Shown here: piece after piece, positions 50,393 to 57,486 of the stretch | Layout of the letters: every line of letters starts with the position of its first letter | Numbering within the stretch: position 1 is the first letter of the stretch | NCBI RefSeq assembly: GCF_030413175.1 | Contig: NZ_CP129212.1 | Coordinates: 4,998,450-5,062,449, forward strand | Origin: Bradyrhizobium roseum | GTDB lineage: Bacteria; Pseudomonadota; Alphaproteobacteria; Rhizobiales; Xanthobacteraceae | Length of the DNA stretch: 64,000 nucleotides | Reading direction: 5' to 3' | Notes under the pieces: model-generated | Databases searched by the model: none | What the model saw: only the letters and a program-made list of their open reading frames with translations | What the model was told of the DNA's origin: nothing | Translations under genes and position numbers: made by a program

Positions 50393-50612
50393 GACTTCCC
50401 CTCGCCTAGTACCCGTACCTTGCGCAAGCAACGCATTGAAGTCACGGGGGTTTGCTGCCGAAATAAGCACCCGGCAGCCCTTTTTTAGGGCAGCGCGGCG
50501 GACCACCCTACGAAATGCCGCGGGCCAATGCATATCGCGCTGGCCCGAGCCTTGCTACCATCCCGTGAAGTCATGCACTGTGCCGCATGGCCTCCGGAGA
50601 CAGTCAGAATTT

Positions 50613-52031
50613 ATGGCAATTGCCTTCGATGAAATGAACGTACCCGGCGGTGACCTCCGCCCGGCCTATCGGGAGCTCTCCCGCTGGCTGAAGGAGACGC
50701 CTCCCGACGCCCTGGAATACCGCCGCCAGGAGGCGGAACTGCTGTTCCGCCGGATCGGCATCACCTTTGCCGTCTATGGCGACGCCGAGGCCCAGGAACG
50801 GCTGATCCCGTTCGACGTGATCCCGCGAATCATTTCGGCCAAGGAATGGGCCACGCTGGAAAGCGGCCTAAAGCAGCGGGTCCGCGCGCTGAACATGTTC
50901 CTGCGCGACATCTACCACAGCCGCGACATCCTGCGCGCCAATATCATTCCCGACGACCTGATCTTCCAGAACCCGGTGTTCCGCCCGGAGATGAACGGCC
51001 AGGACGTGCCGCACGATGTCTATGTGCACATCGCCGGCATCGACATCGTCCGGACCGACGCCGACAATTTCATCGTGCTGGAGGACAATGCGCGGACGCC
51101 TTCGGGCGTCTCCTACATGCTGGAAAACCGCGAAATCATGATGCGGCTGTTTCCGGACCTGTTCGCCCGACACCGTGTCGCACCGGTGGAGCGCTATCCC
51201 GATGCGTTGCTCTCGACGTTGCGCTCGGTGGCGCCGCTGTCGGCTTCGGCGGAGCCGACCGTCGCACTGATGACGCCCGGCGTCTACAATTCCGCCTATT
51301 ACGAACATTCGTTCCTGGCCGACAAACTCGGAATCGAACTGGTCGAGGGCCGCGACCTCGTGGTCAAGAGCGACGAGGTGTTCATGCGCACCACCGAGGG
51401 GCTGAAGCGCGTCGACGTGATCTACCGCCGCGTCGACGACGATTTCCTCGACCCCCTCACCTTCCGCCCGGATTCGGCGCTCGGCGTTCCCGGGCTGATG
51501 TCAGCCTATGCGGCCGGCAACGTCACGCTGGCGAACGCGGTCGGCACAGGAATCGCCGACGACAAGGCGATCTATTCCTACATGCCCCAGGTCGTGAAAT
51601 TCTATCTCGGCGAAGAACCGATCCTGAAGAACGTGCCGACCTGGCGCTGCCGCGAGCCGAAGGACCTGTCCTATGTGCTCGACCATCTCGGTGACCTCGT
51701 CGTCAAGGAAGTGCATGGCTCCGGCGGCTACGGCATGCTGATCGGACCTGCCGCGACGAAAGCGACGATCGAGGCGTTCCGCGACAAGCTCAAGCGCGAG
51801 CCGGAGGGCTTCATCGCCCAGCCGACGCTGGCGCTGTCGACCTGCCCGACCTGCACGGCGTCGGGGCTGGCGCCGCGCCACGTCGATCTCAGGCCGTTCG
51901 TGCTGACGGGCAGCAAGCAGGTCACCATCGTGCCGGGCGGGCTGACGCGGGTGGCGCTGAAGGAAGGCTCGCTGGTGGTCAATTCGAGCCAGGGCGGCGG
52001 CACCAAGGACACCTGGATACTGGACGAGTAG
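50613..52031 (+). CDS. circularly permuted type 2 ATP-grasp protein
   Basis: A 472-residue predicted amide-bond ligase of the circularly permuted ATP-grasp family (formerly DUF404/DUF407). Features include RVRALNMFLRDIYHSRDIL, the acidic block FIVLEDNARTPSGVSYM, VVKEVHGSGGYGM (glycine-rich ATP loop), HVDLRPFVL and SQGGGTKDTWIL. It would activate a carboxylate as acyl phosphate and join it to an amine, possibly a short peptide. GGAGA lies upstream of ATG 50613. It heads the ATP-grasp, alpha-E, transglutaminase run. Confidence 0.9.
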   Translation: MAIAFDEMNVPGGDLRPAYRELSRWLKETPPDALEYRRQEAELLFRRIGITFAVYGDAEAQERLIPFDVIPRIISAKEWATLESGLKQRVRALNMFLRDIYHSRDILRANIIPDDLIFQNPVFRPEMNGQDVPHDVYVHIAGIDIVRTDADNFIVLEDNARTPSGVSYMLENREIMMRLFPDLFARHRVAPVERYPDALLSTLRSVAPLSASAEPTVALMTPGVYNSAYYEHSFLADKLGIELVEGRDLVVKSDEVFMRTTEGLKRVDVIYRRVDDDFLDPLTFRPDSALGVPGLMSAYAAGNVTLANAVGTGIADDKAIYSYMPQVVKFYLGEEPILKNVPTWRCREPKDLSYVLDHLGDLVVKEVHGSGGYGMLIGPAATKATIEAFRDKLKREPEGFIAQPTLALSTCPTCTASGLAPRHVDLRPFVLTGSKQVTIVPGGLTRVALKEGSLVVNSSQGGGTKDTWILDE

Positions 52032-52047
52032 AGAGCGAAATCTTCGT

Positions 52048-52992
52048 ATGCTGTCGCGCACCGCCGAAAACCTGTACTGGCTGGCCCGCTATGTCGAGCG
52101 CGCCGAATACATCGCGCGCACCATCGACGCGACCCTGCGCGTCACCGCGCTCCCCGCCGCCTACATCGGCAAGACCAACGAGTGGGAATCGGCGCTGCTG
52201 ACCGCGGGCGTCAGCGCGAGCTTTTACGAAACCTATCAGGAAGCCAGCGAGCAGAACGTCGTCGAGTATCTGGCATTCTCGCCGTCCAATCCCTCCTCGA
52301 TCAAGAACTGCATCGAGGCTGCTCGACTCAATTCGCGATCCGTGCGCACCGCGCTGACATCGGAGATGTGGGACACCATCAATTCGGCCTGGATCGAGCT
52401 GCAGGAAGTCTGGGGCAAGGGCACCTCCAGCCGCGAGGAGCTGGCGCGGTTTCTCCGTTTCGTGCAGGAGACGTCACTGCGCTTCGACGGCTCGGCCTAC
52501 CGGACCATGCTGCGCAACGACGCCTACTGGTTCTCCCGCCTCGGGCTGCATCTGGAACGCGCCGACAACACCGCCCGCATTCTGGACGTGAAATATCATG
52601 TGCTGCTGCCCGAGGAGGAACATGTCGGCGGCCCCCTCGACTATTACCAGTGGACCTCGATCCTGCGCTCGGTCTCGGCGCTGACGGCCTATCACTGGGT
52701 CTATCGCGAGACGCTGAAACCCTGGCTGATCGCCGACTTGCTCATCCTCAACGACACGCTGCCGCGGTCGCTGGCGAGCTGCTACAGCAATTTGGTACGC
52801 AATCTCGACCAGATCGGCGTCGCCTATGGCCGCCAGGGCGCCTCCCAGCGCCATGCCCGCGGCGTCCGCAACCGACTTGAACACAGCCATATGGACGATA
52901 TCTTCCAGCACGGCGTCCATGAGTTCATCCAGGAATTCATTTCGGACAACGCCCGGCTGGGTGAGATCATCACCAAGCAATATTTGATTTAG
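52048..52992 (+). CDS. alpha-E domain-containing protein
   Basis: A 314-residue all-helical protein of the alpha-E (DUF403) family. It starts with the family signature LSRTAENLYWLARYVERAE (19 residues) and carries SLRFDGSAYRTMLRNDAYWF and RADNTARILDVKYH. The domain has no known activity and is found almost only with ATP-grasp and transglutaminase genes, so it is thought to act with them. It starts 16 bp after the ATP-grasp gene. Confidence 0.92.
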   Translation: MLSRTAENLYWLARYVERAEYIARTIDATLRVTALPAAYIGKTNEWESALLTAGVSASFYETYQEASEQNVVEYLAFSPSNPSSIKNCIEAARLNSRSVRTALTSEMWDTINSAWIELQEVWGKGTSSREELARFLRFVQETSLRFDGSAYRTMLRNDAYWFSRLGLHLERADNTARILDVKYHVLLPEEEHVGGPLDYYQWTSILRSVSALTAYHWVYRETLKPWLIADLLILNDTLPRSLASCYSNLVRNLDQIGVAYGRQGASQRHARGVRNRLEHSHMDDIFQHGVHEFIQEFISDNARLGEIITKQYLI

Positions 52993-53016
52993 TGCGATGG
53001 ATGCCACCAAAACACC

Positions 53017-53100
53017 GTCATGGCCGGGCTTGTCCCGGCCATCCACGTCTGCTTTGAGAGTAAGGAAGACGTGGGTGCCCGGCACGAGGCCGGGCATGAC
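53017..53100. repeat. palindromic intergenic repeat, GTCATGGCCGGGC family
   Basis: An 84-bp element between the alpha-E and transglutaminase genes, with mirrored ends GTCATGGCCGGGC...GCCGGGCATGAC and a CCACGTCT/AGACGTGG inner pair. It fills nearly all of the 128-bp spacer of what looks like an operon. Confidence 0.8.
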
Positions 53101-53120
53101 GCTCCAGATCCGGTTCCACC

Positions 53121-53957
53121 ATGCGCCTGCGAATTGCCCACACCACGAGCTATCGCTACGAGCCGCCCGCCTCGGGCGTGATCCAGATCCTGCGCATGAC
53201 GCCCGGCAGCCATGACGGGCAGTATGTCGCCGAATGGCAGATCGACGTCTCGACCGATTCCCGGCTCGACACCCATCAAGACGCGTTCGGCAACGTCACC
53301 CACGTGCTCACCCACGGGCCGATCGCCGATCTCACCATCCATGTCGGGGGCCTGATCGAAACCCACGACACCGGCGGCGTGCTGCGCGGCACCGACGAGC
53401 GTTTTCCGCCCGGCCTGTTCCTGCGTACGACTCCGCTTACCGAGGTCAATCCGGCGATGGCGACGTTTGCCCGCGAGATGCGGGCGGAGTCCGACGGCGA
53501 CGTGCTCGGTTTCCTGCACGCGCTGATGGTGCAGATCAACGAGCACATGACGTTCGACGAAGACCCCACCAATTCGGGCACGTCGGCGGCGGAAGCCTTC
53601 GCGCTCCGGCGCGGCGTCTGCCAGGACTACGCCCATATCTTCATCGCGTGCGCGCGCACCGGCGGCATCCCCGCCCGCTTCGTCTCCGGGCATTTTATGC
53701 GCTCCGACGGCACCACGCAGCAGCAGGCAGGTCACGCCTGGGCGGAATCCTATGTGCCTGACCTGGGCTGGGTCGGCTTCGATCCCGCCAACGGCATCTG
53801 CACCACCGACGCCCACGCCCGCGTCGCGATCGGCCTCGACTATCTCGGCGCCGCGCCGGTGCGCGGCACGCGATATGGCGGCGGGGCGGAGACGCTGACG
53901 GTGTCGGTCAAGGTCGAACAGGCCGCGCGGCCCGGGCAGTGGCAGAGCCAGCAGTAA
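53121..53957 (+). CDS. transglutaminase-like family protein
   Basis: A 278-residue papain-fold protein. An N-terminal beta domain (LRIAHTTSYRYEPPASGVIQ) is followed by the transglutaminase core with the catalytic Cys in RRGVCQDYAHIF, His in GHAWAESYV and Asp in GFDPANG. Proteins of this family are thought to act as peptidases or amide transferases rather than classical protein cross-linkers. No signal peptide is seen, so it is cytoplasmic. Its upstream region has only a weak ribosome binding site next to the palindromic repeat. Confidence 0.9.
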   Translation: MRLRIAHTTSYRYEPPASGVIQILRMTPGSHDGQYVAEWQIDVSTDSRLDTHQDAFGNVTHVLTHGPIADLTIHVGGLIETHDTGGVLRGTDERFPPGLFLRTTPLTEVNPAMATFAREMRAESDGDVLGFLHALMVQINEHMTFDEDPTNSGTSAAEAFALRRGVCQDYAHIFIACARTGGIPARFVSGHFMRSDGTTQQQAGHAWAESYVPDLGWVGFDPANGICTTDAHARVAIGLDYLGAAPVRGTRYGGGAETLTVSVKVEQAARPGQWQSQQ

Positions 53958-53980
53958 GCGGGGGCCACTCAGCGTCAGCC

Positions 53981-54079
53981 GTCATTCCGGGGCTCGCGTA
54001 GCGAGAACCCGGAATCCGACGTGCACCAGCGTTGCTGTTAGTTGGATCCCGGGTTCGCGAAGGCGCGCCCCGGGATGAC
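53981..54079. repeat. palindromic intergenic repeat, GTCATTCCGG family
   Basis: A 99-bp element with mirrored ends GTCATTCCGGGGC...GCCCCGGGATGAC and inner GGATCC/GGAATCC words, between the transglutaminase gene and the convergent binding-protein gene. Confidence 0.85.
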
Positions 54080-54092
54080 ATCTTTCCGATCA

Positions 54093-55703
54093 TCACTTGT
54101 CCAGCCAAACGTCCTCGAAGCGCAGATTGTTGTACTGGCTGTTGTCGTGCGGCTTGAAATTCTTCACGTGCGGCTGCCAGCAATTGCCGGCCGAACCATG
54201 CAGGATCACGGGACGCGCGGCGTCCTCCACCAGGATCCGCTCGATATCCCAGACCATCTTGCGCCGCTTTTCCTTGTCGAGTTCGCGGGACTGCGCCGCC
54301 AGCAGCTTGTCGACGTCGGCGTTGCAATACTGGGTGTAGTTGCGTTCGGAGTTACACGAATAGTTCTCGACGATGTTGCCGTCGGGGTCGTCGACGCTGA
54401 CGCCGGTGACGTTGAGGCCGATCGTATAATCCTTGCGCTGCAGTTTGGCGTACCAGCGCGGCGTATCCAGAATGTCGAGCTCGGCGACGATGTAGATCTT
54501 CTTGAGCTGGTCGGAGACGATCACGGCTGGATCGCGGTAGGTCGGCAGGTTGCGCGTCTGAATCTTGATCTGCAGCGGCTTGGCATCGCTATAACCGAGC
54601 TTCTGCATGATGGCCTGTGCCTCGGCGAGGTTCTTTTCCGCTTCGGAGCCGTAGCCGGTCAAAGCGGCCTGCATCTCCGCGGGCATGCCCCACTCGCCCT
54701 CCGGCTTTGGCAGCATCGCCCCACCCAGCCGCGCGGTGCCTTCCATCAAAATGCTATTGAACGGCTTGCGGTCCAGCGCCAGCGACATCGCCTTGCGCAT
54801 TTCCGGATTGTCGAACGGCGGATTGACGCGGTTGACCATCAGGTTGATCAGCGTGCCGGTCGTGATCACCTCGCAGATCGCGTTCGGCGCCCGCGCCTTG
54901 ACGTCCTTCATCAGGGGAATGCTGACGTCGGAGGGAAAGGTGATGTCGTAATCGCCGGTCGAGAACGCCAGCATGCGCGTGGCACGGCTGTCGATGGTGC
55001 GCACCGTGATTTCGTCAAGATAGGGCCGGTCCTTCTTCCAGTATTCCGGATTGCGCACGAGGCGGATTGAATCGCCGCGCTTGAACTCGACGAACTTGAA
55101 GGGACCGGTGCCGACCGGCTTGGTACGCATCACCTGCTGCGGCACGTGACAGGGATAGACCGCGGAGAAGGCGCTCGCGAGCAATACCGGCAGGCTCGGC
55201 TGCGGCTCGCTCAACTCGAAGGTCGCTTCGTAATCGCCGTTGACGCTGACGTCCTGCAGCTTGGTGTACCAGACTTTTCGCGGATTGCGCTTGAAGTCCT
55301 GCGTCTCGGCCTTGCCGATCAGCATCCGCCAGGTGCACTGCACATCTTTCGCGGTGAACGGCTGGCCGTCGTGCCATTTGACGCCCTGCCGCAGCTTGAA
55401 CGTCAACCTCGTATTGGTTTGATCCCACGCCCAGCTTTCGGCGAGATCGGGAATGACGGTCTCGATGCTCTCGTGCACCTTGGCGGGATCGAACGTCACC
55501 AGATTGTTGAAGACCGCGGCAAAAGGCATCACCGAGGCAATCGTCGATTCTTCCAGCAGCGAGGTCGAAGGCGGGTTGTCGTTGTGATAGAGCCTGAGCG
55601 TGCCGCCCTTTTTCTGCGCGGCGGCAGGGCTGGCGGCAACCAGTGCGATGCTAAGCAGCGCCAGGGACGCGGCAGGCTCGAGTAAGGACCGCTTGGCGCG
55701 CAT
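54093..55703 (-). CDS. orphan ABC transporter substrate-binding protein, family 5
   Basis: A 536-residue periplasmic protein with a signal peptide (SLALLSIALVAASPAAAQ). Family-5 features: RLTFKLRQGVKWHDGQPFTAKDV (cut), GTGPFKFVEFKRGD and FDNPEMRKAMSLALDRK. It resembles dipeptide/oligopeptide binding proteins. No permease or ATPase gene is adjacent, unlike the importer at 31.9-37.0 kb. It lies on the reverse strand between the transglutaminase and the Anbu peptidase genes, which raises the possibility that it binds a product of that system. Confidence 0.88.
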   Translation of the reverse strand: MRAKRSLLEPAASLALLSIALVAASPAAAQKKGGTLRLYHNDNPPSTSLLEESTIASVMPFAAVFNNLVTFDPAKVHESIETVIPDLAESWAWDQTNTRLTFKLRQGVKWHDGQPFTAKDVQCTWRMLIGKAETQDFKRNPRKVWYTKLQDVSVNGDYEATFELSEPQPSLPVLLASAFSAVYPCHVPQQVMRTKPVGTGPFKFVEFKRGDSIRLVRNPEYWKKDRPYLDEITVRTIDSRATRMLAFSTGDYDITFPSDVSIPLMKDVKARAPNAICEVITTGTLINLMVNRVNPPFDNPEMRKAMSLALDRKPFNSILMEGTARLGGAMLPKPEGEWGMPAEMQAALTGYGSEAEKNLAEAQAIMQKLGYSDAKPLQIKIQTRNLPTYRDPAVIVSDQLKKIYIVAELDILDTPRWYAKLQRKDYTIGLNVTGVSVDDPDGNIVENYSCNSERNYTQYCNADVDKLLAAQSRELDKEKRRKMVWDIERILVEDAARPVILHGSAGNCWQPHVKNFKPHDNSQYNNLRFEDVWLDK

Positions 55704-55948
55704 GGTGGCCTCCCAATCTTTTTGTTCTTTTCGACGGTCAGACTGCCGGAGGCCGACGGCTTAATCAACACTTGTAAAAGGCCTCCCAAGCCCGGCCCTG
55801 CCACGACTGTGCCGATCGCAGTACCTGCCTCCCCGCGAGCCGGTTTATCGGCCTGATGGCATGCCGCCCCGCGGGAATTGGGGTTGGATGCCACTCTGAA
55901 ATTGGCTACTAGTTGCCCCGCCGTAAATGGACGGCTCGGGGACATGGA

Positions 55949-56707
55949 ATGACTTATTGTTGCGGAATTCTGGTGCGGGACGGGCTCGTGATGATCGCGG
56001 ACACCCGTACCAACGCCGGCCTCGACAACGTCTCGACCTTCCGCAAGCTGCATATTTTCTCCAATCCGGGCGACCGCATCATGGCGATCGCCAGCGCCGG
56101 CAATCTAGCGATCAGCCAGTCGGTGCTGTCGACCCTGACCGAGGGCATCGAAGATCCCACCACCGGCGAGGTCGAGACGCTGATGAACGCCCCGACCATG
56201 TTCCAGGCGGCGCAGCGCATCGGGCGCGCGATACGTCTGGTCCATGCCACCGAAGGCCCGGCGCTGCGATCCGAAGATGTCTCCTTCGACGTCTCCTTCC
56301 TGTTCGGCGGTCAGATCAAGGGCTCGCGGATGCGACTGTTCATGGTCTACACCGCCGGCAATTTCATCGAATGCACCACCGATACGCCCTACTTGCAGAT
56401 CGGGGAGCATAAATACGGCAAGCCGGTGCTCGACCGCGCGATGCATTACGACGTCGAGCTGTACGAAGCGCTGAAGACCGGCCTGATCTCGATGGATTCG
56501 ACCATGCGCTCCAACCTTGGCGTTGGGCTTCCCATCGACGTGCTGGTGGTCCGCAGCGATGCCTGCGAGGCCGACCTCAACCACCGCATCGAGGCCGGCG
56601 AGCCCTATTTCCACGACCTGCGCTCGCGCTGGTCGGCGGCATTGCGCGCGGCGCACCAGAATATTCCAAGACCACCCTACAAAACCCAGACAGAAGCAAA
56701 AAACTGA
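55949..56707 (+). CDS. Anbu, proteasome-like Ntn-hydrolase peptidase
   Basis: A 252-residue member of the Anbu (ancestral beta subunit) family, related to proteasome beta subunits and HslV. The initiator Met is followed by Thr (M-T-Y-C-C-G-I), so removal of Met exposes the Thr1 nucleophile without a propeptide. Asp at position 17 (MIADTR) and Lys at about 32 (FRKLHIF) match the proteasome active site. Known Anbu structures are open-ring or helical assemblies with weak or no measured peptidase activity. ATG 55949 is required by the Thr1 logic. The SDR gene follows 14 bases later. Confidence 0.9.
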
Positions 56708-56721
56708 AGGCGAGGAAGAAA

Positions 56722-57486
56722 ATGGCCGACGCAACCAACAAGATCGCAATCGTGACCGGTGCCGGCACCGGCGTCGGGCGCGCCGCATCGCTGGCGTTGA
56801 TGAATGCCGGCTTTACCGTCGTGCTCGCCGGTCGCCGCATGGAGATGCTGGAAGAAACCAAGAAGCTTGGCGACAATGTCGGCAAGAGCCTGTGTGTTTC
56901 CGCCGACATGACCGACCCCGGCTCGATCGCGGCGCTGTTTGCCAAGACGATGGACACCTACGGCCGGCTCGACGTTCTCTTCAACAATGCCGGCATGGGC
57001 GCACCGCCGGTCAATTTCGAGGACCTGCCGCTGGAGCAGTGGCAGGCCGTGGTGAACACCAACCTCACCGGCCCCTTCCTGTGCACCCAGCACGCCTTCC
57101 GCATCATGAAGGACCAGAAGCCGATGGGCGGCCGCATCATCAACAACGGCTCGATCTCGGCGCACGCGCCGCGGCCGTATTCCTCGGCCTATACTTCGAC
57201 CAAGCATGCGATCACGGGCCTGACCAAGGCCTCCAACCTCGACGGCCGCAAATACGACATCGCGGTCGGCCAGGTCGATATCGGCAACGCGGCAACCCCG
57301 ATGACCGATCGCATGGTCAATGGCCCCGGCGTGATGCAGCCCGACGGCACGATGATGCACGAGCCGCGCATGGATGCGAAGGCGGTCGGCGACGCGGTGG
57401 CCTACATGGCCGGACTTCCGCTCGATGCGAACGTGCTGTTCATGACTGTCATGGCGACCAAGATGCCGTTCGTGGGACGGGGGTAA
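56722..57486 (+). CDS. SDR family oxidoreductase
   Basis: A 254-residue classical short-chain dehydrogenase. It has the NAD(P) motif [12 protein letters not shown], a catalytic Ser in NGSISAH and YTSTK (Y-x3-K). GAGGAAG precedes the ATG, which lies 14 bases after the Anbu gene, so the two are probably co-transcribed. The substrate is unknown; there is no sign that it belongs biochemically to the peptidase system beyond position. Confidence 0.88.

Follow-up and report, generated by a model that had tools for sequence, protein, structure and literature searches.

The Anbu operon of Bradyrhizobium roseum: a candidate sigma-54-dependent amide-conjugation system and the recurrent loss of the transglutaminase cysteine in its relatives

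The stretch of the Bradyrhizobium roseum genome considered here (the window: 64,000 nucleotides, positions 4,998,450 to 5,062,449 of contig NZ_CP129212.1) carries, between its positions 50613 and 57486, genes for a circularly permuted ATP-grasp protein, an alpha-E protein, a transglutaminase-like protein, the proteasome relative Anbu and a short-chain dehydrogenase/reductase (SDR). We tentatively read this cluster, at a little under even confidence, as the Bradyrhizobium version of the Anbu operon, that is, a predicted amide-conjugation system under the control of sigma-54 that most likely operates in nitrogen limitation. As a member of a known operon the locus is ordinary in kind: the four-gene arrangement, as well as the idea that it serves to make and remove a tag, are already published (PMC5666114 and PMC6376114, which refer back to Valas and Bourne 2008 and to Iyer et al. 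2009). Our attention is therefore given mainly to two features, a conserved sigma-54-like site upstream of the ATP-grasp gene and the repeated loss of the transglutaminase cysteine in genomes that possess a second, related locus.

The core proteins and their association

The open reading frames and coordinates of the five genes, all on the forward strand, were borne out, and their Pfam matches confirm the gene set proposed in an earlier annotation of this DNA (the original prediction). The ATP-grasp protein, a predicted amide ligase (50613..52031, +), matches PF14403 over its full length (positions 1-374 of 374; 566 bits against a curated cut-off of 32; E 4.7e-170) as well as PF04174 (E 6.8e-163), and its alignment contains invariant residues (n=126). 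Its solved relative, 3n6x (E 6.3e-208), is named a putative glutathionylspermidine synthase, and the ATP-grasp protein of the published operon is reported to free phosphate from ATP (PMC6376114). The alpha-E protein (52048..52992, +) is likewise a full-length match to its family (PF04168, E 4.5e-92; 309 bits, cut-off 20.8), with an ER motif whose E17 and R18 are invariant (n=125). The pattern ERA-x3-AR-x2-D occurs twice in this protein with equal spacing (residues 17-27 and 170-180), which suggests a probable internal duplication. Its predicted model is all-helical (mean pLDDT 92.9); there is no relative by sequence in the PDB at E<=0.001, and a comparison of the fold gave no informative match. 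The third gene (53121..53957, +; PF01841, E 1.3e-22, and PF08379, E 6.7e-19) encodes a transglutaminase-like protein, a predicted thiol enzyme in which the alignment locates the triad Cys167/His205/Asp221.

Anbu (55949..56707, +) is an Ntn-hydrolase of the proteasome family (PF00227 Proteasome, E 3.8e-6; 27.1 bits, cut-off 22.4), and we identify this proteasome relative as Anbu because of its matches to solved Anbu structures: five distinct PDB sequences, named either Anbu (three) or Peptidase (two), are matched, with 5loy the best (E 2.9e-81). Its best start is the ATG at 55949, with an in-frame TTG upstream at 55913. The protein begins Met-Thr-Tyr and, numbered from that threonine, has Asp17 and Lys32, so that the threonine directly after the methionine, the Asp17 and the lysine originally noted are all confirmed. 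The three residues are unvarying in 93 of 93 aligned sequences and in 80 of 80 from the genus, the latter being the 80 best loci for the window's Anbu among genome contigs (90-100% identity; all but three titled Bradyrhizobium).

A sample of 121 genomes at the level of the order was searched for Anbu, alpha-E and ATP-grasp, which are present in 76, 87 and 87 of them, respectively. ATP-grasp and alpha-E occupy the same 87 genomes and all of the Anbu genomes fall inside that set, giving Anbu in 76/87 genomes with the pair versus 0/34 without it (Fisher 8e-21, uncorrected for kinship); the co-occurrence of the four core families anticipated by the original prediction is accordingly strong. The gene order is also widely shared. 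Among 85 stretches fetched around unfused ATP-grasp genes (the order loci; the window is excluded, and some stretches end at contig ends), Anbu lies within the stretch in 70, and ATP-grasp, alpha-E, transglutaminase and Anbu are colinear and on the same strand in 63. Since 63 of the 85 share both order and orientation, the arrangement is not a matter of chance. The same order and strand are found in the window, though there a minus-strand gene interrupts the series.

A sigma-54-like site upstream of the ligase gene

A sequence resembling a sigma-54 (-24/-12) promoter, TGGCCCG-N4-TTGCT, is located at 50541..50556 on the forward strand, starting 72 bp and ending 56 bp upstream of the ATG of the ATP-grasp gene. 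We scored such sites with our own weights and thresholds, derived from the sigma-54 consensus (maximum 20.2; strict cut 18.5, looser cut 17), and the site in question reaches 19.2 of 20.2. The whole window has four sites of at least 18.5 on its two strands, and one such site is thus no proof by itself. In Bradyrhizobium, 65/65 upstream regions of at least 150 bp reach 18.5, and when the sequences are anchored on the motif the site is kept in 70 of 71 upstreams (those of 68 Bradyrhizobium loci, of two same-genus genomes and of the window), the exception having merely 66 bp of sequence. The conserved GG-N10-GC core, in its TGGCAC/TTGC context upstream of the ATP-grasp start, is that of a predicted promoter; over 69 aligned upstreams the information amounts to 1.99 bits in the core, 1.47 in the spacer and 1.22 in the flanks.

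Within the order, 16 of the 85 ATP-grasp upstreams score at least 18.5 in the range -140..-16, which was chosen after a first scoring had been seen, versus a shuffle mean of 0.25 (highest 3 in 200 runs). At the same cut no sites were found in these loci on the reverse strand, nor before alpha-E (84 upstreams), transglutaminase (81) or Anbu (70). A separate class sample (-180..-16) provides the cleaner test: 4/40 upstreams reach 18.5 versus 0.125 in shuffles (highest 2), and none does so on the reverse strand.

This putative promoter fits the nitrogen/NtrC control published for other bacteria. With nitrate versus ammonium, Pseudomonas putida raises PP_2685 (proteasome beta subunit) by 4.4 log2 and PP_2688 (ATP-grasp) by 4.0 log2 (PMC8050072), and PMC5666114 cites a rise of Anbu when this species is limited for nitrogen. 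The NtrC/sigma-54 targets of Burkholderia cenocepacia include I35_5080-83, Anbu being unnamed in the available passages of that paper (PMC5491218), and COG3484 is a member of a predicted sigma-54 regulon (PMC12316311). Because the published expression agrees, the sigma-54 link is not wholly new; what is new is the footprint in Bradyrhizobium, and it is correlational.

Bradyrhizobium also conserves three elements that precede the sigma-54-like site, a T-run (50481-50486), AAATGC (50513-50518) and TATCGCG (50533-50539); these are possibly binding sites.

The DUF2126 locus and the loss of the transglutaminase cysteine

The genome of B. roseum, a single contig of 7.3 Mb, has a second locus at about 2.505-2.512 Mb (2505102-2511842), some 2.5 Mb from the Anbu operon. 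It encodes DUF2126 (1107 aa), which carries an N-terminal transglutaminase domain, a fused ATP-grasp/alpha-E ligase (836 aa) and a second transglutaminase (292 aa). Iyer and colleagues reportedly counted, in 2009, a circularly permuted glutamine-synthetase-like ligase in the same proposed tagging system, and we take DUF2126 to be that ligase.

In Bradyrhizobium the operon transglutaminase keeps its cysteine in all 70 readable copies among the 80 loci. More broadly, Cys167 is missing from 15 of 109 operon transglutaminases (12 of the 87 with Anbu), where various residues stand instead. Nine loci whose transglutaminase match lies outside the operon position were dropped, and in the 100 that are left, our first set, the fused ATP-grasp/alpha-E gene is present in 15/15 Cys-less genomes versus 35/85 of the others (Fisher 1.8e-5). 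The second set consists of 77 new genomes, 17 of them the best matches of a Cys-less query and 60 chosen from the matches to that query (20 without and 40 with DUF2126); here DUF2126 is found in 25/25 Cys-less genomes versus 27/52 (4.7e-6). Combined, the two sets give 40/40 versus 63/138, the label being the fused gene in the first and DUF2126 in the second, and with DUF2126 as the sole label the figures are 39/40 Cys-less versus 63/138 Cys-keeping genomes (Fisher 2.1e-10). Only G130 departs from the pattern, with the fused ligase and neither DUF2126 nor Anbu. It should be kept in mind that the loss in 40/178 describes a chosen sample and cannot be read as a prevalence. In one of the 178 genomes, G087, the transglutaminase, with its cysteine kept and DUF2126 present, is not beside alpha-E; this genome was excluded from the first set and came in with the second. 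Parsimony resolves the losses into 15 clades on the alpha-E tree or 10 on the transglutaminase tree, 14 and 9 of which lie in DUF2126 backgrounds. Random placement equalled this bias in 0/50000 runs on the former tree and 314/50000 on the latter, with genome size ignored.

These results bear on the original prediction, which had cast the ligase as the writer of a modification and the transglutaminase together with Anbu as its erasers. The writer/eraser idea stands as a hypothesis that is already published. The two proteins are not equivalent erasers, because the cysteine of the one is lost repeatedly while Thr1, Asp17 and Lys32 of the other are invariant, and this speaks against a joint eraser role. 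The transglutaminase step seems to be replaceable in trans, and the Anbu threonine does not. No published account of a dependence of this cysteine on a second locus was found in the open-licence literature. The conditional loss is correlational and, along with the sigma-54 footprint, worth following.

The cysteines of the second locus are retained. Once weak matches had been excluded (below 190 bits for the second transglutaminase, below 500 for DUF2126), a cysteine was present in 18/18 matches to the second transglutaminase (17 genes, L002 being the same as L118) and in 44/44 matches to the N-terminal domain of DUF2126, several of which are repeat matches of one gene; among the 40 Cys-less genomes it was read in four (G095, G099, G085 and G045). 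A link of DUF2126 to Anbu itself is seen at the level of the phylum, where Anbu is present in 33 of 80 sampled genomes. A search for DUF2126 in 20 of these 33, among them all 18 from outside the class, found it in 14. Anbu lies at most 1 kb from DUF2126 in 11 of the 14, the two genes being 282 kb apart in G423 and on separate contigs in G425 and G154; in 8 of the 11, a span of about 10 kb holds Anbu and DUF2126 together with two ATP-grasp frames, one unfused and one of fused size (848-922 aa). Such clustering speaks for a single pathway common to both loci, as has been proposed in print. Perhaps, and we offer this as a conjecture that is somewhat less probable than not, the operon makes up one half of a nitrogen-regulated conjugation pathway and the unlinked DUF2126/fused-ligase locus the other, with a Cys-enzyme step in common; where the second locus is present, the operon transglutaminase would be free to turn into a non-catalytic subunit, whereas a loss of Thr1 was never seen in Anbu. 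In G432, a genome without DUF2126, alpha-E and Anbu are immediate neighbours and there is no transglutaminase match within 1.5 kb; this fits a dispensable operon transglutaminase and not an obligatory supply from DUF2126.

Neighbouring genes and local additions

The SDR gene (56722..57486, +; PF00106, E 6.8e-47) begins 14 bp past Anbu. It follows Anbu in 80/80 Bradyrhizobium loci, at less than 70 bp with two exceptions, and is found in the stretch of 5/85 order loci, three of which belong to the same genus or family. Anbu and SDR are a fixed pair in Bradyrhizobium and the SDR, a lineage-specific partner, is not part of the core; the coupling of the two in the original prediction is thus real for the genus, 14-bp gap included, and does not extend to the operon at large.

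The minus-strand gene that separates the transglutaminase from Anbu (54093..55703, -; SBP_bac_5, E 1.5e-71) was absent from the original prediction. It encodes a peptide-type substrate-binding protein of an ABC transporter and is an insertion rather than a core gene: it is seen in 19/80 Bradyrhizobium loci, some of which are incomplete, and in 0/85 order loci. Both it and the SDR are local additions, the binding protein a sporadic one. Because this gene lies between them, cotranscription of Anbu with the first three genes is unlikely here. Across Bradyrhizobium the space between transglutaminase and Anbu (53957-55949 in the window) often contains insertions, and in the loci showing both genes the gap ranges from 126 bp to 9.9 kb. 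On the other side of the operon lie two divergent upstream genes, one of MoCF/CinA type and one for a xanthine phosphoribosyltransferase, the former seen in 64/68 Bradyrhizobium loci showing ATP-grasp. A record titled Frankia sp. RB7 (JAUEPE010000008.1) carries an Anbu that is 94% identical to that of the window; its title or assembly is probably wrong.

A possible pathway and its alternatives

In a nitrogen-controlled conjugation system of the kind we favour, sigma-54 and an enhancer-binding protein would act at the site described above to transcribe the ATP-grasp, alpha-E and transglutaminase genes. The ATP-grasp protein, with alpha-E as its obligate partner, would then, to judge from its family, use ATP to activate a carboxylate and join it to the amine of a peptide or protein. 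A transglutaminase-type cysteine enzyme would act on the same product, supplied either by the operon copy or, as the pattern of loss suggests, in trans by the DUF2126/second-transglutaminase locus. Finally, Thr1 of Anbu, whose catalytic residues are in place, might hydrolyse the product and return amino acids or the tag.

A number of observations weigh against such a pathway. Eleven of the 87 genomes with ATP-grasp and alpha-E have no Anbu. The sigma-54-like site is patchy outside the genus, with 69/85 order loci falling short of 18.5, and in the class sample the looser cut of 17 gave 6 forward versus 4 reverse sites, so that only the strict cut separates the strands. None of the 80 Bradyrhizobium loci has a site of at least 18.5 before Anbu, which in the window is parted from the sigma-54-like site by the binding-protein gene. 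A search of the upstream region for NtrC and NifA sites gave nothing convincing, the best NtrC-like match in the window having 8 of the 12 letters of the consensus. The available passages of two papers point the same way: expression of the operon was unchanged under various conditions and it was dispensable without stress, its co-expression yielded no other form of Anbu (PMC5666114), Anbu from three species showed no peptidase activity and left proteasome substrates uncleaved, and Yersinia bercovieri Anbu gave no specific pull-down of its operon partners (PMC6376114).

An alternative is that the compound formed and degraded by the system is a small peptide or amide metabolite (e.g. a gamma-linked nitrogen or redox compound) instead of a protein tag, with Anbu and the cysteine enzyme as metabolite hydrolases. 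We consider this quite possible, if not probable. Besides the lack of peptidase activity (PMC6376114), it could draw on the open dodecameric ring published for Anbu of other species, which has no partner AAA ATPase or unfoldase (PMC5666114), on the name given to 3n6x and on the nitrogen control, which suits a storage or salvage compound; but among the genes looked for in the order loci, which were those of the window, none that could belong to such a metabolite is conserved next to the four core genes. It seems improbable, on the other hand, that Anbu and the SDR are a separate unit that in Bradyrhizobium merely lies near the ligase operon and no longer cooperates with it. The steady Anbu-SDR distance beside the variable gap to the transglutaminase would speak for this, as would the lack of a strict-cut site before Anbu and the 7/70 order loci in which Anbu is opposite in orientation to ATP-grasp. 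Nevertheless, the 34 genomes without ATP-grasp and alpha-E are also without Anbu, a dependence that holds despite the rearranged neighbours.

The loss of the cysteine could, alternatively, be the decay of a redundant gene, for example in large genomes, with the operon transglutaminase disappearing and nothing being shared between loci. We think this less likely than not, even though the Cys-less copies diverge faster (41% versus 54% identity to the window's protein, n 10 and 32, where ATP-grasp identity is 71% and 73%), some of them are also without the histidine, and G432 has no transglutaminase match within the distance searched. Against decay, the Cys-less copies are still open frames beside alpha-E, 5/5 of those tested match both Transglut_core and the N-terminal domain, and the losses fall on DUF2126-bearing branches beyond random placement, genome size being uncontrolled.

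Whichever product is involved, the present data narrow the function of a bacterial proteasome relative that was named in 2008: Anbu occurs only with the ligase and alpha-E, and none of the Anbu sequences read has lost the threonine, while the transglutaminase cysteine is lost repeatedly. The conserved sigma-54-like site suggests nitrogen limitation as the condition in which to seek this function and, with the second locus, the relevant genes can be named: ATP-grasp, Anbu, transglutaminase and DUF2126.

Comparison with known systems

The Pup-proteasome system of actinobacteria consists of a ligase and a hydrolase of the proteasome family and is tied to nitrogen starvation in mycobacteria. The cluster described here resembles it in having a predicted ligase and such a hydrolase and in its probable link to nitrogen. 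The Pup system uses the Pup tag, with PafA as its ligase, and also has an AAA unfoldase. Anbu, in contrast, is an open ring with no partner AAA ATPase (PMC5666114). Closer to home, the DUF2126 locus has the ligase, alpha-E and transglutaminase families in common with the Anbu operon but, in the genome of the window, no Anbu beside it, and its cysteines are kept in every copy read. The nearest counterpart is of course the published Anbu operon, with which the window locus shares the four families, their order and the Thr1/Asp17/Lys32 residues, and from which it differs in the binding-protein gene that interrupts it, the SDR attached to Anbu and the sigma-54-like site that precedes it.

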